Below, piece after piece: positions 15,162 through 62,020 of a stretch of 64,000 nucleotides of DNA. A program made the translations under genes and the position numbers. How positions within the stretch are numbered: the first letter of the stretch is position 1; every line of letters starts with the position of its first letter. The notes beneath the pieces were generated by a model. That model saw only the letters and a program-made list of their open reading frames with translations. It ran no database searches and had not been told where the DNA came from. This DNA comes from Bacteroidales bacterium. Lineage in GTDB: Bacteria; Bacteroidota; Bacteroidia; Bacteroidales; FEN-979. Location: NCBI GenBank assembly GCA_028706295.1, contig JAQWBQ010000010.1, forward strand, positions 1-64,000. Direction: 5' to 3'.

Positions 15162-16171
15162 CAGGGTTGCTCCTTGTTAAAACAAATTCCGATTTCCCGC
15201 TTTACCAGATTAAAGGAAAACTTCCCTTTTCTGAAAAAATCGAATCCCAGCATGCCGTCAATCCGGGTTCCGTAATAATCCGACATGGAAGTAAGGTCGG
15301 TCAGAATGGTCTCCATCGGACCGATTTTCCGGCTGCCTACCATGAAGTCGTTCAGAATTCCGTAAAGAACCTCTTTTTCTCCGGAACCCACACCACGCAA
15401 GGTCGACCTGCGTGTGATGGTTACTGTGCTCAATACTTTTTTCGGGGCTCCGAGGTTAATTACATTGGATTCAGCGCCTGTGTCAAGACAAAAGTAAAGT
15501 GGCCGTCCTGCAATATTGGCGGTCATGAACATGATATTGCGATGCCGTTCCAGTTTCTGAATCTGATCAAACTTCATCGCCGGCCGGGTAGTCGTCAGGC
15601 GATTTCCATTCCTGTCGGTCCGGTAAATCTGAAGTTCATTTCCTTCAACGTCGAGCACCATTTCGTACTCTTTCAGGATGGCCATCCCAAGAAGTCCGAG
15701 GATCTTTACACCCCTCCTGTTTTCAAGATGACCCAGGGGCGCCAGATCGGTCATGACGCCATTGACTGTGATTTCCGAAAACCGGAGTGTGCTTATTCTG
15801 GTCTTTTCAACCGTCCCCGCGGTTCCGGTGATGCCCCCGGCCTCCCTGGAAACGGTAGTGGAATAATTACGGAAATAGGTCTTGTTCAGAACCAGCTCTT
15901 CGGCGCCCGTATCGAGGATCAGATTCCCTGCGATATTATCAATGATCCCTTCAACCAGAATCAGCCTTCCCGCCCGTTTAAGCGGAATGGTAACACCGAG
16001 AAAAGTTCCCGATGGATCATAAACAGGGCTTCCGGTCACTTTCAACATCCCGATCTTCAGGCAGGATGGCGCTTTCGCTCCGGGGAGGGCGATACTGCAT
16101 GGCTGTAAGCCCAGGTTCAGTGTCAGCAGAACGAACAATACCAAAAATCCAAAACGAAGTTTCCTGACCAT
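15161..16171 (-). CDS. Single-chain retropepsin-like aspartyl protease
   Basis: Two DTG motifs, LILDTGAEELVLN and YFCLDTGAESNVIN; signal peptide; stop and next start overlap as TGATG at 15159-15163. Confidence 0.85.
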   Translation of the reverse strand: MVRKLRFGFLVLFVLLTLNLGLQPCSIALPGAKAPSCLKIGMLKVTGSPVYDPSGTFLGVTIPLKRAGRLILVEGIIDNIAGNLILDTGAEELVLNKTYFRNYSTTVSREAGGITGTAGTVEKTRISTLRFSEITVNGVMTDLAPLGHLENRRGVKILGLLGMAILKEYEMVLDVEGNELQIYRTDRNGNRLTTTRPAMKFDQIQKLERHRNIMFMTANIAGRPLYFCLDTGAESNVINLGAPKKVLSTVTITRRSTLRGVGSGEKEVLYGILNDFMVGSRKIGPMETILTDLTSMSDYYGTRIDGMLGFDFFRKGKFSFNLVKREIGICFNKEQP

Positions 16172-19100: not shown

Positions 19101-22100
19101 TTGCAGTTCCTGATCCCGAAGTAATGGTTCCTCCCGCAGAGATCGTCCAAAGATAATTCTGCATTCCGGGATCGGTTGTGTAAACTACGCCGGTCGTTTG
19201 TTGGCAGCTCTGAACGGGTCCGTCAATCCAGGGAACCGGAGCGGTTGTAATGGTGACATTTTTGATGGTCGGAGTAGCTGCAGTGCATCCTTTCTGGTTC
19301 ACATAATTTACGTCAACGGTATGAGATCCGGCACTGTACCAGATCACGGTAATTGAATGGGTCCCGGCGCCTGCAGTGATCACACCGGATGTCGAAACAT
19401 TCCAGGCATATGCAGTCATTCCGGTTTCGGTGGTATAATTCACCGGTATTGATGTACAACCCTGAACGGGTCCCGTAATGGTCGGGGTAACCAGTTCGTT
19501 GACGGTGACCGTTTTGGTCGATGGTACCGCTGTACACCCGTTGGAATTGGTATAGGAAACGTAGACTGTCTGCTGACCGGTGGCTGTCCAGTTGATCGTC
19601 ACCGTCGGTGAGTTGACACCCGAAATAATAGTTCCGCCCGGGGTCACGCTCCACAGATAGTTCGACATTCCGGTTTCTGTGCTGTAAGATGCATCAAAGG
19701 TCACACATCCGCTTGATCCACCTGTGATCAGCGGTACAGGCAGCGGATTTACCACAATGGTTTTCACTGTGGCTGATGAGGCTGAACAACCATTGACGTC
19801 GTTGTAATTTACCGTGATGCTTTGGGTTCCCGACGACAGCCAGTTGACTGATATGGCCGAAGTACCCTGCCCTGCTGCGATGACACCGCCGGTTGATACG
19901 GTCCAGATATAATTGCTCATGCCGGCTTCGGTCGTGTAAATGTTTCCCGTGGTGGCCGGACAACCGGTAGCCGGACCTGTAATCACCGGAACCGGAAGTT
20001 CCCGAACGGTCACCGTCAGTGTGGAAGGCTGGGAAGCGGTACAGAGATCGGAATTAACATAGTTGACTTTCACTGTTTTAATCCCAGATGAGGTCCAGGT
20101 AATCTGTACGGAGTCGCTTGTGGCGGTTCCACCGGCTGTTATGATCCCTCCCGGAGAAAGGGTCCAGGAATAGTTGGTTTTGCCGGCTTCCGTGCGATAT
20201 ATATTCCCGGTTGAATTCAGACAAACATCGGAGGGTCCGGTAACCGTAGGAACAGGTAACGGATGAACAGTACAGAAGAAGGTGGCAGGAGTGACCGCGT
20301 TGCATCCTGACAAATTAATATAATTAACTTTTACCCATTGATTTCCTGTGGAACTCCAGGCGACGACAATCGAGCTCGCGTGGCCAGACGGATTGGTGAG
20401 AATGGTGCCACCGGCTGAAACAGTCCATTCATATTGCATCATACCGGTTTGGGTGGTGTAGGTATTCCCGGTGGAGCCAACGCAAGCTGATGCGGTTCCG
20501 GTAAGTGTCGGAACCGGACGTTCATTGACGGATACATCAAAAATCGTCGGTACGACCGATAAACACCCGTGCTGATCGGTGTAACTGACTGTAACGTGCT
20601 GCAGGCCGGAAGCATTCCATGAAACCGTGATGCTGTGTGTTCCTGATCCGCCGGTGATGGTACCTCCTGACGAGACCGACCAGGTATATCCGGTCATCCC
20701 CGGATCGGTGGAATACTCAAACCCTGTTCCGCCGACACAGGCATAGTTTAAACCGGTAATGACGGGAACAGGGGCCGGATAGACCAGAATAGTTTTTGTT
20801 GCCGGAACCGGCGCCGAACAATTGCTGGTATTGGTGTAATTAACCGAAACCGTCCGGTTGCCCGCCTGTGTCCACTTGACAGAGATACTGCTGGTCCCCG
20901 AACCCGAGGTGATAATTCCACCCGGACCGACGGACCACTGATACAGCGCCATACCCGTTTCAGTCGTAAAGACGACGGTTCCATCGATACAAACGGTATC
21001 GGCACCGGTTATTGTAGGTTCAGGCGAAGGATAGACCGTGATTTGTTTTGATCCCGGAACCTGGGTAGGACAGCCGGAAGATCCGTTAATATAAGTGACG
21101 GAGATGGTATGGATGCCGGTAGTATTCCATCTTACGCTGATGGAATTCGTTGAAGCGCCCGAAATGATAGTGCCTCCGGAAGAGAGGGTCCATTCATAAT
21201 TGATCATACCCGACGTGGTAGAATATACCGATATTGCTCCGTTACACATGATTTCCGGACCGGTGATTATAGGAAGGGGTAAGGGCAGGACATTGATCGT
21301 TTTACTGGTTGCGACAGAGGCGTTGCATCCTGCCGGATTTGTATAATTGACCGTAATAGTTTGCGTTCCTGAGCCTGTCCAGTTCACGCTGATGGCATTG
21401 GTCCCCTGACCCGCCGTCAGGACACCTCCGGAAGTTACAGTCCAGGTATAATTCGACATTCCCGGTTCGGTAAAATAAACGACGCCGGCACTGGTCTGAC
21501 AGATCTGGCTTGTCCCGGTTATAGTCGGGGCAGGCGATCCGGATACTGTAACTTGTTTTACTGTCGGATTGGCCTGTGTACAACCGATCGGATCGGTATA
21601 AATCACGCTTACACTCCCGGTTCCGGCACTGTTCCAGGTAATGGTAACGGTGCGTGTATTGGAAGCTCCGACAATGGTTCCGCCTGAGGATACAGACCAG
21701 ATATAATTCTGCATTCCTGCCTCAGTGGTATAATTCTCACTATGACCGGTACAGGACTGCCCTGGTCCTGTAATCGTTGCCACAACATTGTTCTGGACTG
21801 TGACCGATTTGGTCGATGGAATAAGTGGAACACACCCGTTGGTGGTAGTGTAGACCACCGAAACATCCTGTTGACCGGGTGCCGACCATGCAATGGTGGC
21901 TGCAGCAGTGTTTGAACCGGAAATGATGGTTCCACCGGCTGTTACACTCCATTGATATCCGCTCATTCCCGTTGAGGTCTGATAAACTGTCTGGCTGCCA
22001 TTGCACACTGCTGCAGGGCCCAGGATCACGGGAACAGGCGCCGCAAGTACATTTACGGCCCTGGTGGCAGGGGTTGCCGGTTGGCATCCTTTCTGATTGG

Positions 22101-25100
22101 TATAGATTACAGAGATTGTTTTAGTCCCGGGCGTTACCCAGGTCACCGAGATCGATTCGGTTCCCTGACCCGAATCGATGGTTCCGCCCGGGGAAACGGA
22201 CCACAAATATCCGGTCATACCCGATTCCGTAGCATAGCTGTAACCAGGTATGCCCTGGCAAGGGGATGCAGGGCCAGAGATGACAGGTATCGGGAGCGGA
22301 TGAACCGTGACGGTTACCACTGCCGGGGCGGCGGCCAAACATCCCGATTCATTGGCGTAATTGACGGATACCTGCTTTGTTCCCGGGCCGGTCCAGGTAA
22401 CTGTGACGGAATTGCTGGAGGTGGTACCTCCGGAAGTGATGGTTCCTCCCGGTGAAACGATCCAGGTATAATTGCTTTTCCCGCTTTCGGTCATATAAAC
22501 ATTGCCGGCCGCATTCTGACAAACCGAGTCGGGGCCGCTCAATGTCGGCACAGGCCGGTTTGTGACCGTCACTGGAAATACTGCCGGCGTCAGGGCCTGA
22601 CAACCGGCGATACTGGTATAATTTACCCCTACCGATTGCGCACCAAGGGTATTCCATTGAACTGTTATTGTGCTTTCATGGATTGAAGGATTTGTCAGGA
22701 TCACACCGCCGGAAGAGACGGTCCAGCTGTAAGTACCCATCCCGGCCTGAGTATTGTAAGTGTTGTCCACAGAGCCGACGCAACTGGGTGTCGTTCCTGT
22801 GATCACAGGATTTGCCGGTCTTTCATTGACCGAAATATTATACTGGCTGGGTGTTGATGAGGTACATCCATATTGATCCGTGTAACTGACCCGCACATAT
22901 TGCAACCCGGTCGCCGTCCAGTCGACGGTAATGGTCGATGTTCCAAGGCCTGTTGATATCGTCCCTCCGGAAGATACTGACCAATTGTAACCGGTCATTC
23001 CCGGAGCCGTCGAAAACACACTCCCCTGCCCGCCTGAACAGGCAAAGGAAGGACCTGATATGACTGGGACAGGCGGTGCAAGTACCCTGATGATCTTATC
23101 AGCGTAGGAAGGACAAACATAGGTGGTAGTATAACTTACTGTCACCTTGCCGTTGCCTGCCTGGGTCCATTTTACCGAAATACTGCTGGTTCCCTGTCCC
23201 GAGGTGATGACGCCGCCGGTGACAGTCCATTGATACAAGGCCATTCCCGATTCTGTCGAAAAAATCAGGGTGCCATCCAGGCAAATGGTATCGCTTCCGG
23301 TAATGGTAGCCAGGGGCGTCGTATTCACGGTGACGTTTTTCACGGAAGGGATCAGAGTAGGACAACCGAAGGTATTCAGATAACTCACGCTGACGGTCTT
23401 GGCGCCGGAAGTGTTCCAGATCACTGAAATGGAATTGCTTCCTGATCCCGAGACAATAGTTCCACCGGTTGATACCGACCAGATATAATTGGTCATTCCC
23501 GTTTCGGTACTGTAATAAACCGTATTACCGGTACAGGCGACGGAAGATCCGGTGATTACCGGTTGTGGTGCTGGATATACGGTGATGGTCTTGGATGTAG
23601 GTGAAGCTGCATTACATCCGGAACCATTTTTGTAATTCACGGTGATGGTCTGTGTACCCGAACTGATCCAATCCACGCTGATAAAATGGCTCCCCTGCCC
23701 GGAAGTGATGATCCCGCCGGAGGTGATGGTCCAAACATAATCCGTCATCCCCTGTTCTGTAAAATAGATAACACCGGAACTTGAAGGGCAGATGGAAGTG
23801 GTTCCGGTGATGGTTGGTGAAGGAGCCGCGTAAACCTGTACAGTTTTTTGTGTTGGCGTCGTGGTGCTGCAACCGCCCGGATCGCTATACCTTACGGTGA
23901 CATATTGGCTTCCCGCGGAATTCCACCTGACGGTCACAGCATTGGTATTGGCAGATCCGATCAGGGTACCTCCGGATGAAACGGTCCAAACGTACCCCGA
24001 CATTCCGGTTTCGGTACTGTAAACTGCGGTATATCCGGTACAGGATGGATCGGGACCGATGATGGTGGGGATGACCGTTGACTGCACCGTAACGGCTTTT
24101 GAGGCAGGGGTCGATGCGGTACAACCATTCGTATTGGTATAATTGACGGTAATAAATTGATTGCCTGTCGAGGTCCAGGTAACGGAGATGGAGTTTCCTG
24201 TGGCCGCACCGTCGATAGTCCCTCCGCTTACCGACCAGGTGTACCCGTTCATCCCGGCTTCGGTGGTATAAACATTACCTGAAGTACTGACGCATGCCGT
24301 CGCAGCGCCTGAAATGGTGGGTACGGGTAAGGAGTTGACGGTGATCTTAACCGCATTGGTATTGAGGGTTCCGCAGGATCCCGAACTGGTCTGGGCCTGA
24401 CGAAACCAGGTTGAAACACTCATCGATCCGGGTTGATAAGTCATGTTGGTAGCCCCCGCGATCGGAAAGAAATTCAGGTTGTCGGTCGATTGTTCCCACT
24501 GGAACGAGTACGGTGTCAATCCTCCGGTAGGTACCGTTGCTGTAAGCGGCAGAGGTATCTGATTATAACAGACAGATTGGTTCGATACTGCGGTTCCGGC
24601 GACAAACTGCGGATAGATGGTGATGTTATAGGTCGAAACCGGACCGGTGCACCCATTGGCCGAGGGGGTGATGGAAATTACGGCAGAGATCGGGACTGCC
24701 GAACTGTTAGCTGCAGTGAACGAAGGGATGGAAGATCCGGTTCCCGAAGCAGCAAGTCCGATCGCCGTATTGCTGTTCGTCCATGAGAAGGTGGTACCCG
24801 TCACCGGACTGGTCAGTGGGGTTGCGGGGGCGATTACTCCGCTGCAAAAAATCTGATCGGTTACAAGGTTTGCTGTTGGCGTGGGTTTCAGGGTCACGAT
24901 GACGCCGGTCGAACCCGAACAACCGGATATGGCATATTCTGTGACGGTCAGCGTGGCCGTCTGATCCACCGAAGTGTTGTTGGTCCACACCACATTCACG
25001 GGCGAGCCGGTGGATCCGCCGGTGAACGCTCCATACCAGGATCCGGAGACCGGTAGCAATGACCAGGAGAAGGTTGAGCCGGTCGAGCCGGTGACAGAAT

Positions 25101-26043
25101 AGGGTGTGGTTATTCCGGGACAGATCAGCAACGATCCACTGATAGATGGTGTGGGTGAAGCGATTACTGTGATGTTCCGGATGGCGCTGGTCGCGGTGCA
25201 TGATCCATCCTGAACATTTGAATAACTTACGGTAACGGAAGCTGTGCCCGCAACTGTACCTCCCAGCAGTGTTATGGAAGAGGTTCCCTGACCTGTAAAA
25301 GAGATGACATTGGGTGCAGACCCCGTCACCGTCCATACAAAATTGTAATAGGTAATTCCCGACGGAGGTGCCGGTGCGTTCAGAACAGTGGAGGCGCCTG
25401 CACATAACCGATCCGTACCTCCGGTGATGGCGCTTCCGTTGGCCGGAGGTGCCAAAACCGAAACATTTTGAAAAACAGGATTCGAATAACAAACCGTGGA
25501 TCCTTCACCGGGCCTTGAGGCCTGAAGTGCAATCGTATAGGTTCCCGGTGTCGTTGGCCAGGTAACGATTCCCATTGTCCCAGACCAAACCGGGGGCGAC
25601 CCTCCGGCCACCACCCAATCGTAATCTTCACCCGCAACAGGATATGCTACAGAATAGGGATAACTTGACCCGGTACAAACCTGGAAGACCCCTAAGATCG
25701 CCGGTGTGGCTACACCTATCAGGACAGTTTTTGAGGCAGGACCGGAACCGGTTACGACATTTATTGTTCCGGTACCGGGTAACGATCCCCAGTCAACCGT
25801 TATTACGGGAGTATTCCCTATGACCGTCACCGGAGTGGCCCCGGTCGAGGTGATGGTCCAGGAATAGGGAAAAGTTCCGCCAACAGCGGTATAAACATTG
25901 ACACCCGCGTCGACACAAACACTTTCAGGCCCGCTGATGGTGACCTGTGCAGCAACCCGCTGCGATAATCCTACTCCTAAAACCCAGAATGCAATAATCA
26001 TTACCAGGTTATATGCATTCATTTTACCCGTATATGTTTTCAT
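16195..26043 (-). CDS. Giant secreted PKD-like/Ig-like repeat protein (3282 aa) with T9SS type A sorting domain
   Basis: ~30 units of consensus xITGPxxxCxGxxGxxYxTExGMxxYxWTVSxGGTIxSGxGTxxIxVxWxxxGxxxVxVNYTxxxGCxAxxPxxKxVTV; signal peptide; C-terminal VYPNPADNNITLEL...LIILNQE. Confidence 0.93.
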   Translation of the reverse strand: MKTYTGKMNAYNLVMIIAFWVLGVGLSQRVAAQVTISGPESVCVDAGVNVYTAVGGTFPYSWTITSTGATPVTVIGNTPVITVDWGSLPGTGTINVVTGSGPASKTVLIGVATPAILGVFQVCTGSSYPYSVAYPVAGEDYDWVVAGGSPPVWSGTMGIVTWPTTPGTYTIALQASRPGEGSTVCYSNPVFQNVSVLAPPANGSAITGGTDRLCAGASTVLNAPAPPSGITYYNFVWTVTGSAPNVISFTGQGTSSITLLGGTVAGTASVTVSYSNVQDGSCTATSAIRNITVIASPTPSISGSLLICPGITTPYSVTGSTGSTFSWSLLPVSGSWYGAFTGGSTGSPVNVVWTNNTSVDQTATLTVTEYAISGCSGSTGVIVTLKPTPTANLVTDQIFCSGVIAPATPLTSPVTGTTFSWTNSNTAIGLAASGTGSSIPSFTAANSSAVPISAVISITPSANGCTGPVSTYNITIYPQFVAGTAVSNQSVCYNQIPLPLTATVPTGGLTPYSFQWEQSTDNLNFFPIAGATNMTYQPGSMSVSTWFRQAQTSSGSCGTLNTNAVKITVNSLPVPTISGAATACVSTSGNVYTTEAGMNGYTWSVSGGTIDGAATGNSISVTWTSTGNQFITVNYTNTNGCTASTPASKAVTVQSTVIPTIIGPDPSCTGYTAVYSTETGMSGYVWTVSSGGTLIGSANTNAVTVRWNSAGSQYVTVRYSDPGGCSTTTPTQKTVQVYAAPSPTITGTTSICPSSSGVIYFTEQGMTDYVWTITSGGIITSGQGSHFISVDWISSGTQTITVNYKNGSGCNAASPTSKTITVYPAPQPVITGSSVACTGNTVYYSTETGMTNYIWSVSTGGTIVSGSGSNSISVIWNTSGAKTVSVSYLNTFGCPTLIPSVKNVTVNTTPLATITGSDTICLDGTLIFSTESGMALYQWTVTGGVITSGQGTSSISVKWTQAGNGKVTVSYTTTYVCPSYADKIIRVLAPPVPVISGPSFACSGGQGSVFSTAPGMTGYNWSVSSGGTISTGLGTSTITVDWTATGLQYVRVSYTDQYGCTSSTPSQYNISVNERPANPVITGTTPSCVGSVDNTYNTQAGMGTYSWTVSSGGVILTNPSIHESTITVQWNTLGAQSVGVNYTSIAGCQALTPAVFPVTVTNRPVPTLSGPDSVCQNAAGNVYMTESGKSNYTWIVSPGGTITSGGTTSSNSVTVTWTGPGTKQVSVNYANESGCLAAAPAVVTVTVHPLPIPVISGPASPCQGIPGYSYATESGMTGYLWSVSPGGTIDSGQGTESISVTWVTPGTKTISVIYTNQKGCQPATPATRAVNVLAAPVPVILGPAAVCNGSQTVYQTSTGMSGYQWSVTAGGTIISGSNTAAATIAWSAPGQQDVSVVYTTTNGCVPLIPSTKSVTVQNNVVATITGPGQSCTGHSENYTTEAGMQNYIWSVSSGGTIVGASNTRTVTITWNSAGTGSVSVIYTDPIGCTQANPTVKQVTVSGSPAPTITGTSQICQTSAGVVYFTEPGMSNYTWTVTSGGVLTAGQGTNAISVNWTGSGTQTITVNYTNPAGCNASVATSKTINVLPLPLPIITGPEIMCNGAISVYSTTSGMINYEWTLSSGGTIISGASTNSISVRWNTTGIHTISVTYINGSSGCPTQVPGSKQITVYPSPEPTITGADTVCIDGTVVFTTETGMALYQWSVGPGGIITSGSGTSSISVKWTQAGNRTVSVNYTNTSNCSAPVPATKTILVYPAPVPVITGLNYACVGGTGFEYSTDPGMTGYTWSVSSGGTITGGSGTHSITVSWNASGLQHVTVSYTDQHGCLSVVPTIFDVSVNERPVPTLTGTASACVGSTGNTYTTQTGMMQYEWTVSAGGTILTNPSGHASSIVVAWSSTGNQWVKVNYINLSGCNAVTPATFFCTVHPLPVPTVTGPSDVCLNSTGNIYRTEAGKTNYSWTLSPGGIITAGGTATSDSVQITWTSSGIKTVKVNYVNSDLCTASQPSTLTVTVRELPVPVITGPATGCPATTGNIYTTEAGMSNYIWTVSTGGVIAAGQGTSAISVNWLSSGTQSITVNYNDVNGCSASSATVKTIVVNPLPVPLITGGSSGCVTFDASYSTETGMSNYLWSVTPGGTIISGVNSPTVTINWTATGQQTVYVSYTNSNGCTAVPSTKTVTVNELVTPTITGPVQGCTSIPVNYTTETGMTAYAWNVSTSGVITAGAGTHSITVIWYSAGSHTVDVNYVNQKGCTAATPTIKNVTITTAPVPWIDGPVQSCQQTTGVVYTTDPGMQNYLWTISAGGTITSGSGTATVTVTWSVPGNQWISVNYTDPAGCHAASATVKNVVVAAAPVPVITGLSQLCNGTTAVYYCEAGMSAYSWTITPGGIITSGAGTNAITVDWISAGTQSITVLYTDFNGCTALTPSQKTVTVHPLPVPTITNDPVACVNGITTFITEPGMNSYQWTVSTGGTIIAGAGTRSIVVSWTTAGTKTITVSYMDPNGCYPQQVTLKTISVSALPVPSIIGNGTACLGSAGNVYSTEPGMSNYLWTVTSGGTITSGAGTQTITVTWNTLTPQVVSVNYTNPAGCTASAPTQFGVTINPLPVPVLTGNATACAGSINNVYVTDPGMTNYIWNVSPGGTILTSTTTNTSSITVAWNTAGSQWVSVNYTNANGCTAAAPTLKSVVVQSSPNPVIVGISSACAGTTGVAYSTDPGFVNYLWSISPGGSITAGTGTNIITVTWITAGTQSVTVNYTNSNGCSAGQPTMKTVTVHALPVPTITGSSLSCLGGTTTHTTEAGMTGYQWTVSAGGTILSGSSSNSIQVQWTTAGPKTVTVNYTNVNGCMAATPSTRTVTVYSQPVPTILGATSLCSGATGVVYSTEGGMINYLWSVTAGGLITSGTGTNMITVNWTIAGVQGISVNYTDAHGCTAAIPTNLPVAVNAVPVPTITGNTNPCMTSGNYSYLTEQGMLNYQWTVTSGGIIVGGQGTRNVQIYWTAPGAQTVTVTYTTPAGCNSLLSSLAVLVRSIPGTPGPIAGDTLICKPLTGVVYSVNPIPEATGYDWAVPAGATITGGANTNIITVSYGENAQSGNISVFGINTCGNGPYSPVLHVSVHPYPDAPVVTVIEPDTLVSSAPAGNQWYRDNQPIPGATAQQYVAYVPGQYFVIASPYGCASDPSNVIGVYPVGVGTQEAIRCQVYPNPADNNITLELAGARRGASLDIWLVDNLGNKRLVAKQFEVQGDTKLNVELGNPPAGLYQLILQWDQTRIIKKLIILNQE
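17200..24075 (-). repeat. Higher-order repeat: three tandem copies of a 9-unit block (~2.29 kb each)
   Basis: Approximate copy borders 24075-21784, 21783-19490, 19489-17200; diagnostic TILT unit at ~22690, ~20392 and ~18100, spacing ~2298 and ~2292 bp. Confidence 0.85.
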
Positions 26044-26321
26044 CGGTAAATGGTTTGATATTTTTAGGTCAATTCCTGTTTCCTGAAGCTAAATTAACAC
26101 AATTTTCCCTGCCAGTTGGTCATTCATCAATATTATTCCTGCCGGCCCAGATTGTATGATCCTCCCACCTGACCGGGTTCCCGGAAATAATTAATCCTTC
26201 CGTGATTATTGAAATCCGGAATTCAGGATGCAAATAACTGTCAGAAAAGGCTTAAATAATCCCGGACCCTGAAGTTTTTTCTAACATGATCCTGTTAATT
26301 GCTGAATTTCAGGATCTGATC

Positions 26322-29300
26322 TCATTGCTTCACAATCCTGAATGTCTGTACCTGGTCCCCGCTTATGATCCTGAGAATATAGATCCCGGTCGGGCGACCC
26401 TCTATCGATACTTTATGGGTACCGCCTTCCCGAAGTTCACCTGTGAAGATCCGCTCGCCCTTCATGGAGTAAATATCAATCCGTGAATCAATGTTTACGC
26501 GCTCTCCGGGACATTCAACATTGAAAATACCAGTGTTAGGATTTGGATAAACTTTAAATCCGCTCACCGGGATTTCAGTTACCGGCGTCTCGATTGAAGT
26601 CGGAACGGTAACAATTGATGGCATGTTCATTCCACAATACATGCCATTTGTCGTAATGTATCCATGCAGGTATCCACCGGGTTGTACGCTTGTACCCGGT
26701 AACATCAGAATGTTCTGGCCGGCAATGAAAGTAGCAGATCCACCGGACTGAACAATAAAATGGGTACCGCTGCCGGCGACCACAATGGTTTGGACGGCAT
26801 CGTAACACGCGCTTTGCCCGGCGCCGATCGTGATATTCTGAACCATCACAAGGGAGGGTGGTAATACCTTGACCGGAAACACCGTAGGTGAAACAGAATG
26901 ACACCCCGAAGCATTGATGACATCAAGATTGACAGTCTGGTTGCCGGTAGTATTCCAGCTCACCTGGATCGAATAGGTTCCTGCGCCTCCCACGATGGTG
27001 CCACCTGCAGAGACGGACCATTGATAACCGATCATTCCGGCATCCGTTGTATAGGTGGTGGTGGTACCAACCGTGGTTTCTGAAAGCCCTGAGATTACGG
27101 GAACAGGCGTCGGGAGAACCGTGATCGTCTTGGCAGTCGGAAATTCTGCGCGACAACCTCCCGGCGTTGTATAATTGACGGTCATCCCTGAGAAACCGGG
27201 AGTTTGCCATACAACAGTGACAGCATAAGTGCCCTGTCCGCCTGTGATGACACCCCCGGGTAAAACAGTCCACTGATAATTGGTCATCCCGGGTTCTGTA
27301 ACATAGACTTCTACCGAAGAAGCGCATGGCAATGAATTTCCCGTTATGGAAGGTACCGGAGGAGAAAGCACCGATATCGGCTTGATCGTGGGAACCGGAT
27401 TGGAACATCCCTGAGCATCTATGTAGTTCACTTCCATTGACTGGGGTCCGGTGGTATTCCACTGTACAAAAACCGAATAGCTATGTTCGCCTGAAAGGAT
27501 GGTTCCACCCGGGGAGACCGACCAATTGTACTGACTCATACCGGTTTCGGTAGTGTAATTGAAAACGCCTGCCGTACAAGGCTGCGACGGACCCTGGATG
27601 GAAGGCACCGGGTAAGGTGATACCCATACATTTTTCACGGTTTGGCTGGAGGTCTGGCAACCCAGTGTATTGGTGTAATTCACGGTAAGGGTTTGTGTTC
27701 CCGGGGTGATCCACGATACGGTAATGCTACGGGTTCCATTACCTGCTGTGATTATTCCTCCGGGAGAAACGACCCAGGCATAGTTTGACATACCGGGATC
27801 GGTAAAGTAAACAACTCCGGTCGAACCTTCACAAACCGTTGATGGTCCTGTGATTACGGGCGCCGGTAATGGATTCACGGTAACCGGAAAGACTACGGGC
27901 GTAAGCGCCTGGCAACCGGTTTGCGGATTGGCGTAATTCACCGTCACGGTTCTGAACCCGGATTGCGTCCACCGGACCAGGATCACGGCAGTACCGATCC
28001 CGGAGGTAATGATGCCGCCGCTTCCGACACTCCAGTTGTAAAGCGACATGCCTGTTTCGGTCGAATAGGCCACGGTCTGGTTCAGGCACACCTGCCAGGG
28101 TCCCGAAATGGTCGGAACCACCGGTTGATTAACATATACAGTTTTAACCGAAGGAGTGGCTGGCACACACCCATGCTGATCGATGTACGAAACGGTCACC
28201 GTCTGAACTCCCGCGTTATTCCAGGTAACATTAATGGAACCTGTATGTTGGCCACTGGTGATCGTCCCGCCGGCTGAAACAGTCCAGGTATATCCCGTCA
28301 TACCGGGATCGGTGTTATAAATCATTCCTCCGACACCGGGACAAACGTTAACCGGACCGGTCAGAAGCGGTACCGGCAATGGATATACCACCATAGCAAC
28401 GGGGCCTGATGTTGCAGGATTTCCGGAGAGACAGGGAGAAGGCAGGCTCGAAGTAAGCACACAGGTCACCACATCGTTTACCGCCGGAACGTAACTGAAA
28501 ACAGGATTGTTACTTCCTGCGTTCACGCCGTTGACTTTCCATTGATACACCGGATTCTGGCCGCCATTGACAGGATAAGCCGTAAAGGTAACGGAAGTTC
28601 CCGCACAGACCGGATTTACCGATGGAATTACAGTGACGCGGATAGGCGGATAGGCGGAACACGTATCTTTCAGACATCTTACCGATAATCCCAATGATTT
28701 ATTGTTTGGATTCCGTCCCACAGCGTTCAAACTGCTGGTCAGGTAACGGGTCCAGGCGTTGGTTGAACTATTCTGGGTTGATGAGTAGTTATATCCGAAT
28801 TCTTTCAGGGATCCGAACATTCCGTCGGCGAAACGCAATCCACCGCCTAAGCAGGTGAATCCGCTGGTATTGACGGCCCCGGTATTGGGCGATAACCAAT
28901 GCGATGTGCCGACCTCTTTCATTTTCCCGCCGGCAACACTTTCTCCGCTCAGATAGGTAGTCAGTACCGACCATTCGTCGTCGGCAGGGATATGCCATCC
29001 CTGAGGACATATCCCCTGAACTCCGGGAATGATAAGATATTGCATCATTTCGTTCCATTGGTACAATCCACCGTAAACGGAACAGTTTGATTCCAGATCC
29101 TGATAACAGTATTTTTCAAGTATACCATTTTGCGATTGTTCCTGATTTCCGTTGATGCGGGTTCCGGCATCCAGATTCTCTTTGAACCAGCATTGGGTCC
29201 CGATTTGTACCGTATGATAGGTCTTACCCATATAGGTCACGGTAGGAATACCCGGACAGGACACCCCGTAAAGGATCCCCATGATAATCGTATTCGAAGT

Positions 29301-32300
29301 TACCTGAGGATTGATCACGCAAAAATGGTTTGAGGTAACCGTGCAAACAACCGAATCCCCTTCCGAAGGGACATAGGTGAAGGTCGGACTGTTGGTTCCG
29401 GCAATGATTCCATTCACCCGCCATTGGTAAACAGGATTGGTGCCCCCGTTCACCGTAGATGCGGTAAATGTTACAGCACTTCCGGTCAACACCGGATTTT
29501 GGGATACCACGATCGACGCCCCGACCACAACGGGCTGGGTTATGTTGACCGTTTTCAAGGGGCTGGCGGCGCTGCAACCGTAACCGTTTGTCACGCTAAC
29601 CCGGATGGTTCCTGTGGTTGGCCCGGGACCTCCCCAGTAAAGATTACAGGTTGACTGTGAGCCGCCGGAAAGGATTTGTGTTCCGGCAGGACCCGAAACC
29701 GTCCAGGCATACGATGACATGCCGGGTTCCGTAAAATATATATGCCCGCCGGTATTCTGACATACCAGATCGGTTGGATCAGAAAAACTTGTGATCGACG
29801 GTGTGGGCGCCGGGTGTACTGCCACCATAAGTGGTGTCGCAACCGATGCCTGACAGCCGTTGCTGTTCAGATAATTTACCGTGATAATCGGGCTCCCTGA
29901 ATTTAACCATGTAATGGTAACTGTTCGGGTTCCCTGGCCCGAGGTAATAACTCCTTCAGAAGTCACAGTCCAGAAATAAGAGGTCATTCCCGGTTCGGTA
30001 AAATAAACATTTCCTGTCGTATTCTGACATCCTGTCGAGGCGCCGGTAATAACCGGAACAGGTAATGCGTTGACGGTCACAGTGTAAGTAGTAGCTTTTG
30101 CAGCAGTGCATCCCTCAGGGGTCGTATAATTAACTCCAACTTGTTTTATGCCCGTCGAATTCCAGGTTACTGTAACAAAATCATTTACCGGCGTACCTCC
30201 TGCTGTTATGGTGCCATCGGGCGATACTGTCCAATTGTATCCGGTTTGTCCGGCCAGCGTGGTGAAGGTATTGCCCGTAGCCCCGTTACAGGTCGATGCA
30301 GGTCCGGTAAGGACAGGGACAGGTAACGGATTCACGGTCACCGAAAAGGTCCCCGGGAGTGCGGCGAAACATCCGGCAGTGTTCTGGTACGTTACCATTA
30401 CGGACTGTGGTCCGGAGGTGTGCCACAATACGTCGATGGTACTGGAATGGTCAGAGGGAGCTGTAATGATGGTGCCTCCGTTTGAAACGGTCCACTGATA
30501 GAGGGTCATTCCCTGCTGGGTGCTGTATGTTGCCTGTGTTCCGATGCAGACTGCCGGCGGGCCGGCGATGACCGGATCAGCAGGTCGGGCATTGATGGCA
30601 AGATTGAACTGTGATGGCGTTTGGGCAGTGCATCCGTGTTGATCGGTATAGACAACATAAACCGATTGTAGTCCGGCAGTGTTCCAAAGCACGGTTACGC
30701 TGTTGGTTCCCGATCCTGCTGATATCACACCATCCGGAGTGGCGGTCCAGGTATACCCGGACATTCCCGCGGCAGTGTAAAAATCGGCTCCCGGACCTCC
30801 GGTACAACTGTACTGCGGTCCACTGATCACCGGTACCGGCGGGGCATACACTGTAATATTCTTTACCGTGGGCGTCACCGCCTGACATCCTCCGGCCGGA
30901 TTGACATAATTCACCGAAACAGTACCCGGGCCCGATTGAATCCATTTTACCGAGATCATGTTGGTTCCCTGTCCCGAGGTGATCAAACCACCGGTACTTA
31001 CGCTCCAGGTATACATCGCCATTCCGGGATCCGTCGAAAAAACAAGGGTACCATCCAGGCATATCGTATCTGCTCCGGTAATTACCGGAAGCGGTGACTG
31101 GTTGACCTGGACCGCTTTAATCCCGGGGACCAGGGTCGGACAACCCTGGGCGTTGAGATAGGCGACAGATATGTTAAAGGTACCGATCGAGGACCAGCGT
31201 ATTCCAATCGTGTTGGTGCCTGATCCGGAAACAATAGTTCCTCCTGCATCCAGATTCCAGGTATAATTTGACATTCCTGATGCGGTGGTGTAGTAGGTAG
31301 TGGTTCCCGTACAAACCGGGGTCTGACCTGAAATTAGTGGTGTGGCGGCAGGTTGTACCGTAACCGGCAGAAGGGTAGGCTGGGGAGCCGTACACCCCGC
31401 CAGATTGCTGTAATTCACCGTCACACTTTGTGTCCCGGCCGTCGTCCAGTTTACAGAAATGACACTGGTACCGCCGCCGCCGGTGATCGTTCCGCCCGTC
31501 ACACTCCAGGTATATCCTGCCATGCCGGATTCGGTAAAATAGACCACTCCGGCGCTTCCCTGGCAAATCGATACCAAACCTGTAATAGTTGGCGCCGGCG
31601 AAGCATTGACGGTAACCGGTTTAACGGTTGGTATGGTCACCGTGCATCCCAGGGCATCGTTGTAAATCACTCCCACATTCCTGTTACCGGCCGTGTTCCA
31701 CAACACCGTGATCTGGCCGGAACCCTGACCCGATACGATAGTTCCGCCTCCCAGAGGCAAGGTCCACACGTAATTGAGCATTCCGCTTTCGGTCAAATAG
31801 GTGCATGGAATCGATGTACACGCAGGATCAGGTCCGGTGATCGAAGGCACAATGGTGCTTTGTACCGAGACGGTTTTTGTTCCGGGCGTCGCAGCAACAC
31901 AATTATTCAGGTCGGTATAGCTAACCGATACGGTCTGTATCCCGGCAGTATTCCAGGTGATATTGACAGAACTGTTATTAACAGGACCTGCGATCACACC
32001 TCCGGTCACCGACCAGTTATAACCACTCATGCCCTGCTGGGTCGAATAGATATTGTTCGTGGAGTTGATACACGCCGCCCCTGCTCCGGTAATTGCAGGC
32101 ACAGGCAACGGATGGATACTTATTTTCACCGCGTTGGTGTAAACCGTTCCGCATCCATCAGATGATATTTGCTTTTGCCGGTACCAGGTTGTTACCGTCA
32201 GGGAACCGGGTTGATAGGTCATCCCGGTTGCCCCGGTAATATCTTCGAAACTGATGTTGTCAGATGAACGCTGCCAGAGATAACTGTAAAAGGATGTTCC

Positions 32301-35300
32301 GCCCGTCGGAGGAGTTGCCGTAAGCGCAACCGGCGCGGTGTTGTAGCAAACCGACTGGCTCGCGGTAGCCGCTCCGGCCAATATCTGCGGATAGACCATG
32401 TAGCTGAACAAGATGGGCTGCCCCGTACAGGTCAATCCCGTCGCCGGTGTGATGTAAGGCGTCACCGTGATGGTTGCTGTTGCCGCAATGGTACCCGTGT
32501 TGATGGCTGTGAACGACGGGATATTGCCGTTGCCGCTCCCAGCCAGCCCGATCGTCGGATTGCTGTTGGTCCATGAATAGGTCGTTCCGGTCCCGGTAAA
32601 GATTACCGCCTGTGTCATTCCGCCATGGCATACAGTCTGGTTGCCCACCGGATTGACTATCGGGGTTGGATAGACGGTAAATTCAAAGATTTTTGATGAT
32701 CCGGTACAAATCAGCCCGGGCGCAGGCGAAATTGAAGGTGTCACCGTAATTGTAGCAGTCTGTGGTGAAGTCCCGGTATTTGTCGCTGTAAAGGTCCCAA
32801 TATTACCGGTACCGCTTCCCGGAATTCCGATGCTTTGATTGCTGTTGGTCCATGTGAACAAAGTACCGGTAACATCACCGTTGAAGGGCGTCGGTGTTGT
32901 TATAGAACCATTGCAAGCCGATTGATTTTGGATATCCGATACATTCGGACTTGGATTAATAGTAAGGGTAAAAGTCATGGTCGATCCTGAACACGTAACT
33001 CCACTGAAAACTGAAACCGGCGTTACGCTTATAGTCGCCGTCAGGGTTGCACTTCCCATATTGGTTGCCGTAAAGGTTCCGATGTTTCCCGTGCCGCTTG
33101 CCGGTAAACCGATCGAAGGCTGGTTGTTGGTCCAACTGTAGGATGTTCCGGTGCCGCTGAATGTTACTGCTGCCGTCAGCGATCCGTTGCACACCATCTG
33201 GTTCTCCACTGCATTGACAACGGGCAACTGGTAAACCGTCGTGGTTAAAGTTCCCGGGGTCAAAGCATCACATCCGGAGATGTTGGTATAGTTTACCCCA
33301 ACGGTCTGTTCTCCCGGTGTATTCCACTGAACCTGGATCGTGCTGGCATGGTTCGAAGGGTTGGTCAGGATCGTTCCTCCGGAAGAGACACTCCAGCTGT
33401 AGGTCGTCATTCCTGCAATGGTGCTGTATACGACAACTGATCCTGCACACGCACCGGCCGGACCACTGATCACCGGGTTTACCGGCCGGGCATTTATGGT
33501 GATGTTATAAGAGGATGGCGTTGATGAACTACATCCGTGTAAATCGGTGTAGCCCACGAAAATTGTCTGTAATCCCGCGGCGCTCCAGCTTGCCGTTACC
33601 GTGTTCGTCCCGGTGGTTGGCGATACGGTGCCCCCTGTCGAAACACTCCATACATAATTTGTCATTCCCGGTTCTGTCGAAAATGTATTTCCGCTTCCCA
33701 GGGCACATCCAAAGTTTGGTCCGCTGATCATCGGAACCGGCAGCGAATAAACGGTTATATTCTTTACCGTGGCGCTCACTGCCTGGCATCCTCCGGCCGG
33801 ATTCGTGTAATTTACCGTAACTGCCTTGGCTCCGGCTTGTGTCCATTTCACGGTGATACTGCTGGTTCCGGCTCCCGAGGTAATGATTCCCCCTGCTCCG
33901 ACTGTCCAGACGTACAACGCCATCCCGGGTTCCGTCGTGTAAGTAACCGTTCCGTTAAGGCACACGGTATCGGCCCCCGAAATCATGGGTTGCGGAGATT
34001 GGTTTATAGTCACTCCGAAGACGCCGGGTATAAGCGTCGGACAACCCAGAGCGTTCAGATAAGTTACGGTGACCGTATGGGTTCCGGTCGACGCCCACGT
34101 GACCCCGATGGAATAGGTTCCGGCCCCCGAACTGATCGTTCCGCCCGAAGTTAAACTCCAGTTATAAAGGGTCATCCCTGGTTGCGTAGTGTAATAGGTT
34201 GTGGTCCCGGTACACGCTGTGGTGGGTCCGGCAATGGTCGGCGTTGCGGCCGACTGCACAGTAACCCGGGTAAAGGTTGCAGCAGGTGCCTGACATCCTA
34301 CCGAATTGGTATAGTTTACTGTGACGGTCTGTGTTCCGGCTATATTCCAGGTAACGGAAATCGCACTGGTGTTGCCTCCTCCTGTGATTGTTCCCCCTGT
34401 AACACTCCAGGTGTATCCGCTCATCCCCTCCTCTGTAAAATAAACAACCCCGGCACTTCCCTGACAGATCGGCGTTGTGCCCCTGATGGTCGGGGCCGGA
34501 GAGGTATTTACCGTGACCGGTATCACCGTCGGAGTAAGGGTTGTACACCCGAGTGCATCGTTATAGATCACGCTCACACTCCGGTTTCCCGGCGTGCTCC
34601 AGATTACGTTTATCCGGCTTGTTCCCTGTCCGGAAAAAATGGTACCGCCTCCCAGCGGCAAAGCCCAGGTATAATTGAGCATGCCGCTCTCGGTCGTGTA
34701 TTCCGATTGCCCCAATGTACACGCCGGATTGGGACCATCGATGGTTGGTATGATCGTATTTTGTACAGTCACCGTTTTGGTGGCAGGGGTTAGTGCATTA
34801 CATCCGTCAGGGGTGGTATAATTCAAACTCACCTGTTGTGATCCCAGCGTATTCCAGGTCACCGTGACGGTGGTGCTTGTGGATGTTCCTCCTGCCGTAA
34901 TGATTCCTCCGACAACGCCCCATTGATAATTGGTCATGCCGCCGGCCGTGCTGTAAACGTTGTTGGTAGCGTTCATGCAGGCAGCAGCCGGACCTTCGAT
35001 GCCAATGACCGGCAGCGCGCTTACCGATATCTTTGCCTGATTGGTGTATACCGATCCGCAACCACTCGAAGAAGATTGTCTGACCCGGTACCACCGGTTA
35101 GCAGTCACCGGCCCCGGCTGATACGTCATGGATGATGCGCCGGCGATCGCGGTGAATTCAGTCCCATTAGTTGATATTTCCCAATCGTACAGGTACGGCG
35201 GAACCCCGCCGCTCAACGCGGTCGTGGTCAGCAATTCCGGCTCCAACCCGTAACAAACCGTCTGGCTTGCCGTTAACGATCCGGCCTTCAGCTGCGGCGT

Positions 35301-37505
35301 TACGGTAATGGTAAATGTCATGGGGTCTCCGCTGCAAGGGATACCCCCATTCGAATAGACCGGCGTCACCGTGATTACAGCCGAAACCGTAACCGTACCG
35401 GTATTTACGGCGGCAAAAGAGGGTATGGAATCAACGCCCTCCTCTCCGATTCCGATCGAAGGTTGACTGTTTCTCCAATGATAAACCGTTCCGGTTACAG
35501 TTCCCGAAAACACGACGGCAGTTGTCGGATACCCGTGACAGACTGCCTGATTTTCTTCAGGGTCCACATCAGGCGTCGGATTAACCGTCACCGTATAGGT
35601 TCTCGTTGACCCCGGACATCCGTTGGCCACCGTAGTGATCGTCACAATGCCTTTAACCGGCGCCGTCGTGGTGTTGCTCGCGGTAAAGGGCAGGATATCG
35701 CCTGTACCGCTTCCCGCCAGCCCGATCAATGGATTGTCGTTGGACCATTCAAAGGTGGTTCCGGTAACCGGCCCGCTTACCGGTGTGACAGGTACCTCTG
35801 CATTATGACAATGTACCTGGTCGCTGATCGGAGTTACCGACGGAGAAGGTTTCACGGTTATGGTAAATGTCATTGGAGTTCCGCTGCAACTGACGCCTCC
35901 GTTCGAATAAACCGGCGTCACCGTGATTACAGCCGAAACCGTCACCGTGCCGGTATTTACGGCGGCGAAAGAGGGTATGGAATCAACACCCTCCGGGTCC
36001 AGCCCGATCGAAGGTCGACTATTTCTCCATTGATAAACCGTTCCGGTTACAGTTCCTGAAAATACGACGGCATCAGTCATAGAACCATTACAGACCACCT
36101 GACTTACTTCAGGGTCTACTTCAGGTTTCGGATTCACCGTTATCGTGAAAGTCCTCGTTGATCCCGTGCAACCGTTTGCCACCGGCTCGATTGTAACGGT
36201 GCCCATGACCGGAAGGGTGGTCGTGTTACTTGCCGTAAAAGCCGAAATATTTCCGGTTCCGCTTTCCGGCAGTCCGATCGAAGGGTAGGAATTCCACCAG
36301 TAAAAGGTAGTACCCGGCACCGGACCTGTTACGGGAATAAACGGCGCCTGGTAAGCATGACAATAGGTCCGATTGCTGATTGTATCCACAGAGGGGGATT
36401 GAATGACTTTTACATTTTTCGTCGCGGCATTTAATCCTTGACAACCACTTGAGGGGTCCGTATAGTTGACCGATACGGTAGTGTTACCGGCCTGTGTGAA
36501 CCTTACGGTTACGGTACTGGTTCCGCCTCCCGACAGGATGGTGGCTCCTGCCCCGGGAGTCCAGGTGTACAGCGATTTTCCCGGATATGTCCAGTAGGTA
36601 TAGGTACCATTCGAGCATACCGTATCGGCGCCGAAAACAACGGGAACCGGTGATTCGCTTACCAACACGGATTTCACGCCGGGAGAGAGGGCCCAGCAAT
36701 TGGTTCCCGGTTCCGTATAAGTGACCGTGATGGTATGTGTTCCGATGGCAAACCAGTTCACTAAAATGGAATTGGTGCCGGTTCCCGAAACGATGGTGCC
36801 TCCCGATGACACCGACCAGATGTAGTTGTTTTTTGAAGCCGCTGTCGCGTATGCTACGGTCGTTCCAGTACATGCGGTTCCGGGGCCCGATGTGACGGCC
36901 GGCGCCGCTGCCTGATTTACGGTGATGACCTTGGAAGCTGCCGGAGAAGCCTGACAACCCGATGCATTGGTATAGTTGGCCGTGATCGTAAAGGTGCCCG
37001 CAACCGGCCAGTCAACAGTGATCGCGTTGACTACCGGCCCTGTGGTAAACGGGGTGGAAGGTGTGATGCTCCAGGTATAACCGGTCATTCCCGGTTCCGT
37101 GAAATAAACAATGCCGGTGGTACTCTGACAGATCGGCTCCGTACCATTGATCATCGGCGAAGGTCTTGCATTCACCGTTACCGTTTTCGATGCGGTACCG
37201 ACGACGCTCCCGCCCGTGGCAACCACGCTGAGAATCACCGTTTGCGTAGTACCGCCCCAGTTTACGGTGATCACGCTGGTACCCTGCCCCGTGGCGATGG
37301 TTCCACCCGATGAGATGGTCCAGGTATAGGTGGATGTTCCGGGAGTTGCGGTATAGACCACGCCTGTTTCATTGGTGCATACGTTGTTTGGGCCTGTTAT
37401 GGAAATTTGTGCGGTTGCACTGAATCCAACCAGGATTAGAAAAGTAAAAGTCAGCACTGCACCTGAAATGAATCTGGGATTCAATCGCCGGGTATATGTT
37501 TTCAT
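26322..37505 (-). CDS. Giant secreted PKD-like/Ig-like repeat protein (3727 aa) with embedded FISUMP-like domain and T9SS type A sorting domain
   Basis: Same unit consensus as the neighbouring 3282-aa protein, plus a second unit type (NQxVCxGxxTxAVxFSGTVTGTxYxWxNxxPSIGL); signal peptide; C-terminal VYPNPNTGIFNV...FRIVKQ. Confidence 0.93.
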   Translation of the reverse strand: MKTYTRRLNPRFISGAVLTFTFLILVGFSATAQISITGPNNVCTNETGVVYTATPGTSTYTWTISSGGTIATGQGTSVITVNWGGTTQTVILSVVATGGSVVGTASKTVTVNARPSPMINGTEPICQSTTGIVYFTEPGMTGYTWSITPSTPFTTGPVVNAITVDWPVAGTFTITANYTNASGCQASPAASKVITVNQAAAPAVTSGPGTACTGTTVAYATAASKNNYIWSVSSGGTIVSGTGTNSILVNWFAIGTHTITVTYTEPGTNCWALSPGVKSVLVSESPVPVVFGADTVCSNGTYTYWTYPGKSLYTWTPGAGATILSGGGTSTVTVRFTQAGNTTVSVNYTDPSSGCQGLNAATKNVKVIQSPSVDTISNRTYCHAYQAPFIPVTGPVPGTTFYWWNSYPSIGLPESGTGNISAFTASNTTTLPVMGTVTIEPVANGCTGSTRTFTITVNPKPEVDPEVSQVVCNGSMTDAVVFSGTVTGTVYQWRNSRPSIGLDPEGVDSIPSFAAVNTGTVTVSAVITVTPVYSNGGVSCSGTPMTFTITVKPSPSVTPISDQVHCHNAEVPVTPVSGPVTGTTFEWSNDNPLIGLAGSGTGDILPFTASNTTTAPVKGIVTITTVANGCPGSTRTYTVTVNPTPDVDPEENQAVCHGYPTTAVVFSGTVTGTVYHWRNSQPSIGIGEEGVDSIPSFAAVNTGTVTVSAVITVTPVYSNGGIPCSGDPMTFTITVTPQLKAGSLTASQTVCYGLEPELLTTTALSGGVPPYLYDWEISTNGTEFTAIAGASSMTYQPGPVTANRWYRVRQSSSSGCGSVYTNQAKISVSALPVIGIEGPAAACMNATNNVYSTAGGMTNYQWGVVGGIITAGGTSTSTTVTVTWNTLGSQQVSLNYTTPDGCNALTPATKTVTVQNTIIPTIDGPNPACTLGQSEYTTESGMLNYTWALPLGGGTIFSGQGTSRINVIWSTPGNRSVSVIYNDALGCTTLTPTVIPVTVNTSPAPTIRGTTPICQGSAGVVYFTEEGMSGYTWSVTGGTITGGGNTSAISVTWNIAGTQTVTVNYTNSVGCQAPAATFTRVTVQSAATPTIAGPTTACTGTTTYYTTQPGMTLYNWSLTSGGTISSGAGTYSIGVTWASTGTHTVTVTYLNALGCPTLIPGVFGVTINQSPQPMISGADTVCLNGTVTYTTEPGMALYVWTVGAGGIITSGAGTSSITVKWTQAGAKAVTVNYTNPAGGCQAVSATVKNITVYSLPVPMISGPNFGCALGSGNTFSTEPGMTNYVWSVSTGGTVSPTTGTNTVTASWSAAGLQTIFVGYTDLHGCSSSTPSSYNITINARPVNPVISGPAGACAGSVVVYSTIAGMTTYSWSVSSGGTILTNPSNHASTIQVQWNTPGEQTVGVNYTNISGCDALTPGTLTTTVYQLPVVNAVENQMVCNGSLTAAVTFSGTGTSYSWTNNQPSIGLPASGTGNIGTFTATNMGSATLTATISVTPVSVFSGVTCSGSTMTFTLTINPSPNVSDIQNQSACNGSITTPTPFNGDVTGTLFTWTNSNQSIGIPGSGTGNIGTFTATNTGTSPQTATITVTPSISPAPGLICTGSSKIFEFTVYPTPIVNPVGNQTVCHGGMTQAVIFTGTGTTYSWTNSNPTIGLAGSGNGNIPSFTAINTGTIAATATITVTPYITPATGLTCTGQPILFSYMVYPQILAGAATASQSVCYNTAPVALTATPPTGGTSFYSYLWQRSSDNISFEDITGATGMTYQPGSLTVTTWYRQKQISSDGCGTVYTNAVKISIHPLPVPAITGAGAACINSTNNIYSTQQGMSGYNWSVTGGVIAGPVNNSSVNITWNTAGIQTVSVSYTDLNNCVAATPGTKTVSVQSTIVPSITGPDPACTSIPCTYLTESGMLNYVWTLPLGGGTIVSGQGSGQITVLWNTAGNRNVGVIYNDALGCTVTIPTVKPVTVNASPAPTITGLVSICQGSAGVVYFTESGMAGYTWSVTGGTITGGGGTSVISVNWTTAGTQSVTVNYSNLAGCTAPQPTLLPVTVQPAATPLISGQTPVCTGTTTYYTTASGMSNYTWNLDAGGTIVSGSGTNTIGIRWSSIGTFNISVAYLNAQGCPTLVPGIKAVQVNQSPLPVITGADTICLDGTLVFSTDPGMAMYTWSVSTGGLITSGQGTNMISVKWIQSGPGTVSVNYVNPAGGCQAVTPTVKNITVYAPPVPVISGPQYSCTGGPGADFYTAAGMSGYTWTATPDGVISAGSGTNSVTVLWNTAGLQSVYVVYTDQHGCTAQTPSQFNLAINARPADPVIAGPPAVCIGTQATYSTQQGMTLYQWTVSNGGTIITAPSDHSSTIDVLWHTSGPQSVMVTYQNTAGCFAALPGTFSVTVNPLPVPVLTGPASTCNGATGNTFTTLAGQTGYNWTVSPDGTITAGGTPVNDFVTVTWNSTGIKQVGVNYTTPEGCTAAKATTYTVTVNALPVPVITGASTGCQNTTGNVYFTEPGMTSYFWTVTSEGVITSGQGTRTVTITWLNSGSPIITVNYLNSNGCQASVATPLMVAVHPAPTPSITSFSDPTDLVCQNTGGHIYFTEPGMSSYAWTVSGPAGTQILSGGSQSTCNLYWGGPGPTTGTIRVSVTNGYGCSAASPLKTVNITQPVVVGASIVVSQNPVLTGSAVTFTASTVNGGTNPVYQWRVNGIIAGTNSPTFTYVPSEGDSVVCTVTSNHFCVINPQVTSNTIIMGILYGVSCPGIPTVTYMGKTYHTVQIGTQCWFKENLDAGTRINGNQEQSQNGILEKYCYQDLESNCSVYGGLYQWNEMMQYLIIPGVQGICPQGWHIPADDEWSVLTTYLSGESVAGGKMKEVGTSHWLSPNTGAVNTSGFTCLGGGLRFADGMFGSLKEFGYNYSSTQNSSTNAWTRYLTSSLNAVGRNPNNKSLGLSVRCLKDTCSAYPPIRVTVIPSVNPVCAGTSVTFTAYPVNGGQNPVYQWKVNGVNAGSNNPVFSYVPAVNDVVTCVLTSSLPSPCLSGNPATSGPVAMVVYPLPVPLLTGPVNVCPGVGGMIYNTDPGMTGYTWTVSAGGTITSGQHTGSINVTWNNAGVQTVTVSYIDQHGCVPATPSVKTVYVNQPVVPTISGPWQVCLNQTVAYSTETGMSLYNWSVGSGGIITSGIGTAVILVRWTQSGFRTVTVNYANPQTGCQALTPVVFPVTVNPLPAPVITGPSTVCEGSTGVVYFTDPGMSNYAWVVSPGGIITAGNGTRSITVSWITPGTQTLTVNYTNTLGCQTSSQTVKNVWVSPYPVPSIQGPSQPCTAGVFNYTTETGMSQYNWSVSPGGTILSGEHSYSVFVQWNTTGPQSMEVNYIDAQGCSNPVPTIKPISVLSPPVPSITGNSLPCASSVEVYVTEPGMTNYQWTVLPGGVITGGQGTYAVTVVWQTPGFSGMTVNYTTPGGCRAEFPTAKTITVLPTPVPVISGLSETTVGTTTTYTTDAGMIGYQWSVSAGGTIVGGAGTYSIQVSWNTTGNQTVNLDVINASGCHSVSPTVFPVKVLPPSLVMVQNITIGAGQSACYDAVQTIVVAGSGTHFIVQSGGSATFIAGQNILMLPGTSVQPGGYLHGYITTNGMYCGMNMPSIVTVPTSIETPVTEIPVSGFKVYPNPNTGIFNVECPGERVNIDSRIDIYSMKGERIFTGELREGGTHKVSIEGRPTGIYILRIISGDQVQTFRIVKQ
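28660..29270 (-). other. FISUMP-like (Fibrobacter succinogenes major paralogous) domain embedded in the 3727-aa repeat protein
   Basis: TVTYMGKTYHTVQIGTQCWFKENLDAGTRI...CPQGWHIPADDEWSVL...TSGFTCLGGGLRFADGMFGSLKEFGYNYSSTQ...LGLSVRCLKD. Confidence 0.85.
29540..35300 (-). repeat. Higher-order repeat in the 3727-aa gene, two 11-unit blocks with a conserved 8-unit core, period ~2.90 kb
   Basis: MTYQPG landmark at ~35119 and ~32212 (2907 bp apart); TILT/TIIT landmark at ~33376 and ~30475 (2901 bp apart). Confidence 0.82.
35310..36245 (-). repeat. Recent tandem duplication, period 552 bp
   Basis: gagggtatggaatcaac at 35419 and 35971; flanking ~80 bp differ at about 4 positions; extended similarity 35310-35690 vs 35862-36242. 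Confidence 0.85.
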
Positions 37506-61956: not shown

Positions 61957-62020
61957 TGTTTTGGGTTTTGGGATTACAAAATATTTACCGGCCCGGTCAC
62001 GTGTCAGCAAATCCCCCGGG

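Follow-up and report, generated by a model that had tools for sequence, protein, structure and literature searches.

The window, by which we mean the whole stretch of 64,000 nucleotides of Bacteroidales DNA analysed here, holds two giant genes, A and B, as adjacent open reading frames (Table 1). The PKD_6 units that make up most of both products are Ig-like. Pfam family PKD_6 (PF19408) scored above its cut-off in each protein, with 840.7 bits over 29 stretches in A and 547.9 bits over 25 stretches in B, and more than half of the 117 PKD_6 matches in the genome (G000) fall inside these two genes. Both proteins end in a type A sorting domain of the type IX secretion system (T9SS). A search of the same genome for the T9SS translocon, represented by SprA_N, found an encoded protein at 551 bits. 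Export of A and B is predicted from the C-terminal sorting tails together with this SprA_N protein. Our search of the literature on PKD_6 and on FISUMP found nothing relevant.

Table 1. Positions of genes A and B and of their parts in the window
Feature	Position	Strand	Content and basis
Gene A	16195..26043	-	3282 aa; PKD_6 array and T9SS sorting tail
Gene A, P and Z units	24322..24891	-	P and Z, one unit each, preceding block A1; unit typing
Gene A, block A1	22033..24321	-	Y a b c d e f g h; unit typing
Gene A, block A2	19735..22032	-	Y a b c d e f g h, without Z; unit typing
Gene A, third nine-unit pass, eroded	17452..19734	-	Diagonal test p=0.004 for the best register among 9 cyclic ones; single units match weakly
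Gene A, T9SS type A sorting domain	16210..16443	-	TIGR04183 / PF18962 above cut-off
Gene B	26322..37505	-	3727 aa; PKD_6 array, PKD_5-like (P) and Z units, FISUMP, T9SS tail
Gene B, partial block B0	36393..37157	-	b c d; position in common with the G009 relative
Gene B, P units	35289..36392	-	Four PKD_5-like units; unit typing
Gene B, first Z unit	35007..35288	-	Unit typing
Gene B, block B1	33219..35000	-	Y a b c d e f; unit typing
Gene B, P units and second Z unit	32100..33218	-	Three P units and one Z unit; unit typing
Gene B, block B2	29805..32099	-	Y a b c d e f g h; unit typing
Gene B, FISUMP (Fib_succ_major) domain	28668..29210	-	Residues 2766-2946; domain search
Gene B, further PKD_6 units	26859..28370	-	Six units, one clearly d-like; unit typing
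Gene B, T9SS type A sorting domain	26343..26552	-	TIGR04183 / PF18962 above cut-off

Order of units within and between the genes

Units were delimited with an HMM made from the two proteins themselves. Gene A reads P-Z-(Y-a-b-c-d-e-f-g-h)-(Y-a-b-c-d-e-f-g-h), followed by about 11 weakly typed units. Gene B begins with a single unit and b-c-d-P-P-P-P-Z-(Y-a-b-c-d-e-f), and continues with P-P-P-Z-(Y-a-b-c-d-e-f-g-h), one weak unit, the FISUMP region and six PKD_6 units. It follows from these strings that the block exceeds eight domains and that its Z-less part is duplicated in gene A too. The original prediction, an eight-domain block ordered Z-Y-a-b-c-d-e-f that occurs once in gene A and twice in gene B, was right about the order and too short in extent, since g and h follow in A1, A2 and B2. 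Its count for gene A holds for the block with Z, but A2 is a second copy without Z and an eroded third pass lies beyond it; the two blocks in gene B stand, with the partial block B0 as an addition.

Landmark positions given earlier were correct to about 10 bp. The MTYQPG motif starts at 24444, 35129 and 32222, and the f motif, likewise within about 10 bp of the previous values, at 22701, 33374 and 30473. The distance from Z to f had been described as nearly constant and is so, at 1743, 1755 and 1749 bp against the earlier 1728, 1743 and 1737 bp, a near-constant offset. Periods agree with those claimed, at 764 aa (2,292 bp) in gene A and 967 aa (2,901 bp) in gene B, the latter additionally including three P units and Z. 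The four P units at 35289–36392 of gene B consist of a pair that has been duplicated again more recently: residues 464–555 and 647–739 share 82% DNA identity, and the other half of the pair, residues 372–463 and 556–646, 66%.

Mean identity plotted against lag has a sole peak in each gene, at lag 9 in A (50% versus about 43%) and at lag 7 in B (48% versus about 40%). Position-specific subtypes therefore return at a fixed period in both genes, as in a super-repeat. The best four collinear runs between A and B, of 7–11 units, score 86, 67, 65 and 62, compared with a maximum run of 29.8 on average (s.d. 6.2; highest 66.6) in 5,000 shuffles of unit order. Runs within a gene reach 105.7 in A and 118.2 in B, against highest values of 81.6 and 78.1, respectively, in 2,000 shuffles. 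Subtype HMMs trained on the other gene only, a design that prevents circularity, assigned 28 of 34 units to the expected subtype, and leave-one-block-out HMMs assigned 30 of 34. Subtypes hence do cluster across the two genes, strongly for b to f and more weakly for Y, a, g and h, with Y and h being weak subtypes. At the level of sequence comparison, it is shown that genes A and B inherited from a common ancestor a series of distinguishable units in fixed order, with b-c-d as its core and Y-a-b-c-d-e-f-g-h as its form in these species.

Relatives of the genes and history of the block

The full pair was found in one other genome, G006 (contig SACF01000004.1), in the same neighbourhood and with 96.8% identity for gene A and 95.0% for gene B. 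This assembly is independent and has the same arrangement, which argues against an assembly artefact. The ratio dN/dS between the two genomes is 0.11 for gene A and 0.21 for gene B; both genes are therefore maintained. Divergence between G000 and G006 is greatest in the three P units that separate the gene B blocks (32385–33218, reverse strand), where dN is 0.09 and dS 0.27 versus 0.026 and 0.127 for the whole gene; recombination or relaxed constraint may lie behind this. SACF01000004.1 (L025) is titled Alphaproteobacteria bacterium in its record, a title that is probably wrong, and the genome set places G006 in the same genus as G000.

The single-block intermediates that the original prediction envisaged were found as relatives with one b-c-d in G008 and G009, which belong to the same genus and share the neighbourhood. 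In G008 this is a 1,048-aa protein with b, c and d typed at margins of 27, 28 and 39 bits and with five more typed units beyond them. It has the C terminus of gene A (53% identity over 338 aa, E 1e-125); gene B gave no comparable match to that C terminus. Homologues of the window genes NtrC, HK2 and GCV_H-PBP flank it on one side, and homologues of the window's 190-aa ORF, M16 and AMP-ligase on the other. The G009 frame, ended by the contig edge, lies beside GCV_H-PBP, HK2 and NtrC homologues; its N terminus is gene B-like (46.5% over 329 aa) and its order is unit-b-c-d.

A tree of the b-c-d copies divides {A1, A2, G008} from {B0, G009, B1, B2} with support of 99.4/99, and joins B0 to G009 with 94.8/97. 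The A and B lineages are thus older than these species, and b-c-d is older than the gene split. Together with the N terminus of the G009 frame, the tree identifies B0 as the copy at the position common to G009. As judged from this phylogeny, separation of the A and B lineages before G000 and G006 parted from G008 and G009 is shown, and the ancestral gene would, from the G008 and G009 relatives, have possessed b-c-d. Three placements of the G008 protein relative to A1 and A2 gave AU p values of 0.73, 0.40 and 0.054; the duplication in gene A may precede or follow the G008 split, and the protein may be either unexpanded or contracted.

Trees of the larger block included A1, A2, B1, B2 and their G006 orthologues. 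Concatenated units a–f preferred ((A1,A2),(B1,B2)) with a deltaL of 39.5, and the two alternative topologies were rejected (AU p 3.5e-5 and 5.6e-5). Among single units, a alone and b alone suffice to exclude both alternatives, and d excludes one; c, e, f and Y favour no topology decisively, and in the Z tree the pairing of A and B2 has a slight edge over that of B1 and B2. The duplicated segment runs from Y to h in gene A and is P-P-P-Z followed by Y to f in gene B. These differing ends are a second, independent sign of separate events, and amplification in the two genes looks independent. Third codon positions of block copies match at only 34–40%, so the block duplications are old.

The claim of one ancestor whose block was amplified differently in the two genes is supported by the clustering of subtypes, the by-gene grouping of a–f, the differing segment ends and the intermediates. 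We regard this history, a shared series followed by a separate duplication in each gene, as very probable. Each gene would have been lengthened after the A/B split by its own multi-domain tandem duplication, presumably through unequal recombination between tandem units, and, with purifying selection acting, identity between the block copies would since have fallen to about 60%.

By-gene grouping would also arise if gene conversion within each gene, rather than duplication after the gene split, had made the copies alike. Tandem copies within a gene lend themselves to conversion, and the unit trees are non-uniform along the block, as conversion might give. We nevertheless consider this unlikely. 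Copies within a gene are only 60–62% identical over a–f, as opposed to 93–98% for orthologous positions in G006, which speaks against recent homogenisation, and conversion does not account for the differing ends of the segments.

Duplication of the block in the ancestral gene before the A/B split would make orthologues of A1 and B1 and of A2 and B2, or of the crosswise pairs. The trees of units e and f permit such a history, and A1–B1 identities for these units lie near or above some within-gene values. The concatenated block rejects it (AU p<1e-4), as do units a and b singly, and the differing segment ends contradict it. Barring a signal overwritten by gene conversion, amplification before the gene split is rejected on concatenated a–f, and we hold it to be highly improbable. 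Chance order among interchangeable units can practically be dismissed: single matches do mean little at the roughly 41% background identity common to all units, but the permutation and cross-gene classification tests rule it out, and G006 retains the order, as G008 and G009 do for b-c-d. Separate duplications in A and B remain the preferred history.

Relatives returned by the genome scan come mostly from uncultured Bacteroidales and other Bacteroidota assemblies. Other members of the genus and family carry many PKD_6 giants, and those of the family resemble A and B in unit, tail type and large size. They differ in lacking the ordered block: beyond the full version in G006 and the b-c-d of G008 and G009, we found it in none of the typed genus genomes, family and order relatives or contig loci, a survey that covered those PKD_6 genes that were typed. 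A b-c-d profile scored 320–418 bits on b-c-d copies, many of them training rows of the profile itself, versus at most 286 bits on the rest. A search of plasmid DNA gave no match. Other giants of the genus (L147, L057, L044 and L046) have long tandem runs of Z-like units (at least 10) followed by PKD_6 units, an architecture that differs from that of A and B while its parts are the same.

Predicted fold and possible role at the cell surface

A predicted model of the three domains d-e-f has an Ig-like fold with a mean pLDDT of 93.6; for P-Z-Y, AlphaFold gave a poor model (pLDDT 47), which was left out. From their domain content and tails, genes A and B are most likely paralogues encoding long T9SS-exported surface fibres or adhesins made of Ig-like PKD_6 units. 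The surface-fibre or adhesin role on its own we think likely. For the account as a whole, that of paralogous T9SS fibres or adhesins each lengthened by its own multi-domain duplication, we put the probability at about 0.78. The long array would form a stalk, and the FISUMP domain of gene B or the P and Z units might, as a guess, be a binding part.

The only strong solved relative by sequence is GhpA, the grappling-hook protein of Aureispira sp. CCB-QB1 (PDB 9flp and related), which the block profile matched with E 3.8e-54. Like A and B, it is a giant Ig-like array, and it is secreted by the T9SS (PMC11205867). Fragments of GhpA also fit the three-domain model best (TMq 0.54–0.66, with the other matches listed at 0.36 or below), so that fold and inter-domain packing are similar, for A and B by predicted model. 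Grappling hooks are reported in a review to be heptamers of a T9SS-secreted protein (PMC11205867), and this double resemblance could be taken to mean that A and B form a comparable hook that catches other cells. The sequence matches, however, are scattered among generic Ig-like repeats with strong composition bias and show no ordered correspondence, and GhpA has 5,898 aa against 3,282 and 3,727 aa. The scattered, biased matches indicate kinship of domain and packing, not membership of a hook system, and we find a GhpA-like hook very unlikely. The comparison links PKD_6 giants of Bacteroidales to the Aureispira protein in domain fold and packing.

SprB and RemA, T9SS gliding adhesins of Flavobacterium johnsoniae, are likewise large T9SS-exported surface proteins. 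RemA (8gl6_D) was matched weakly by the P/Z/Y profile (E 4.9e-7). The main unit of A and B, in contrast, is PKD_6. A Pfam scan of the two proteins found no SprB repeat above cut-off, the score on a Z unit being 15.5 bits against a cut-off of 28, and no RemA-type lectin domain.

Domain repeats are known to grow several domains at a time, often in mid-array, as in nebulin with its unit of seven (PMC1553488), and titin has super-repeats in the C-zone and D-zone of the A-band (PMC10665226). A and B resemble these proteins in distinguishable domains that recur in fixed order and at a fixed period, and in multi-domain growth. They differ in being bacterial, predicted T9SS cargo and without introns, in having only two clear copies per gene, and in that the duplicated segments of the two paralogues end differently. 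Titin super-repeats have been proposed to set a register along the fibre. By analogy, the fixed order in A and B might be under selection, with the super-repeat setting fibre register and the two proteins joining at corresponding block positions to build a single surface appendage, which might resemble the GhpA hook; we give this idea very little credence. Multi-domain duplication is already described as a mode of growth, of which A and B are a well-documented example. They are a clean case from bacteria: the way giant surface genes grow can be followed step by step, from an ordered block in common, through two separately bounded amplifications, to relatives of the same genus that share the neighbourhood and have one partial block.

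Neighbouring genes and a third PKD_6 protein

Next to gene A, positions 13719–16171 (reverse strand) encode a protein with two retropepsin-like aspartyl protease domains and then one with four AMPK1_CBM/CBM48 domains. These two genes stay paired in every other genus or family locus fetched for them. The pair occurs without the giants in other genomes, and gene order in G020 is AspProt-CBM48-M48; the neighbourhood has therefore been rearranged rather than simply filled. On these arrangements a simple empty site for the giant pair is rejected. Homologues of the M16 peptidase in G014 (C441), G011 (C152) and G005 (C84) are reported to contain a single TAA stop within the region matched.

Protein C, the third PKD_6 protein and likewise provided with a T9SS tail, is encoded at 58480–62040 (reverse strand), and a C-like gene adjoins the gene A relative in G008. 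The N-terminal part of C is widespread in the genus at 62–73% identity; the proteins concerned often measure about 750 aa and lack PKD_6 units. A second copy is present elsewhere in the same genome as the window (G000:C12).
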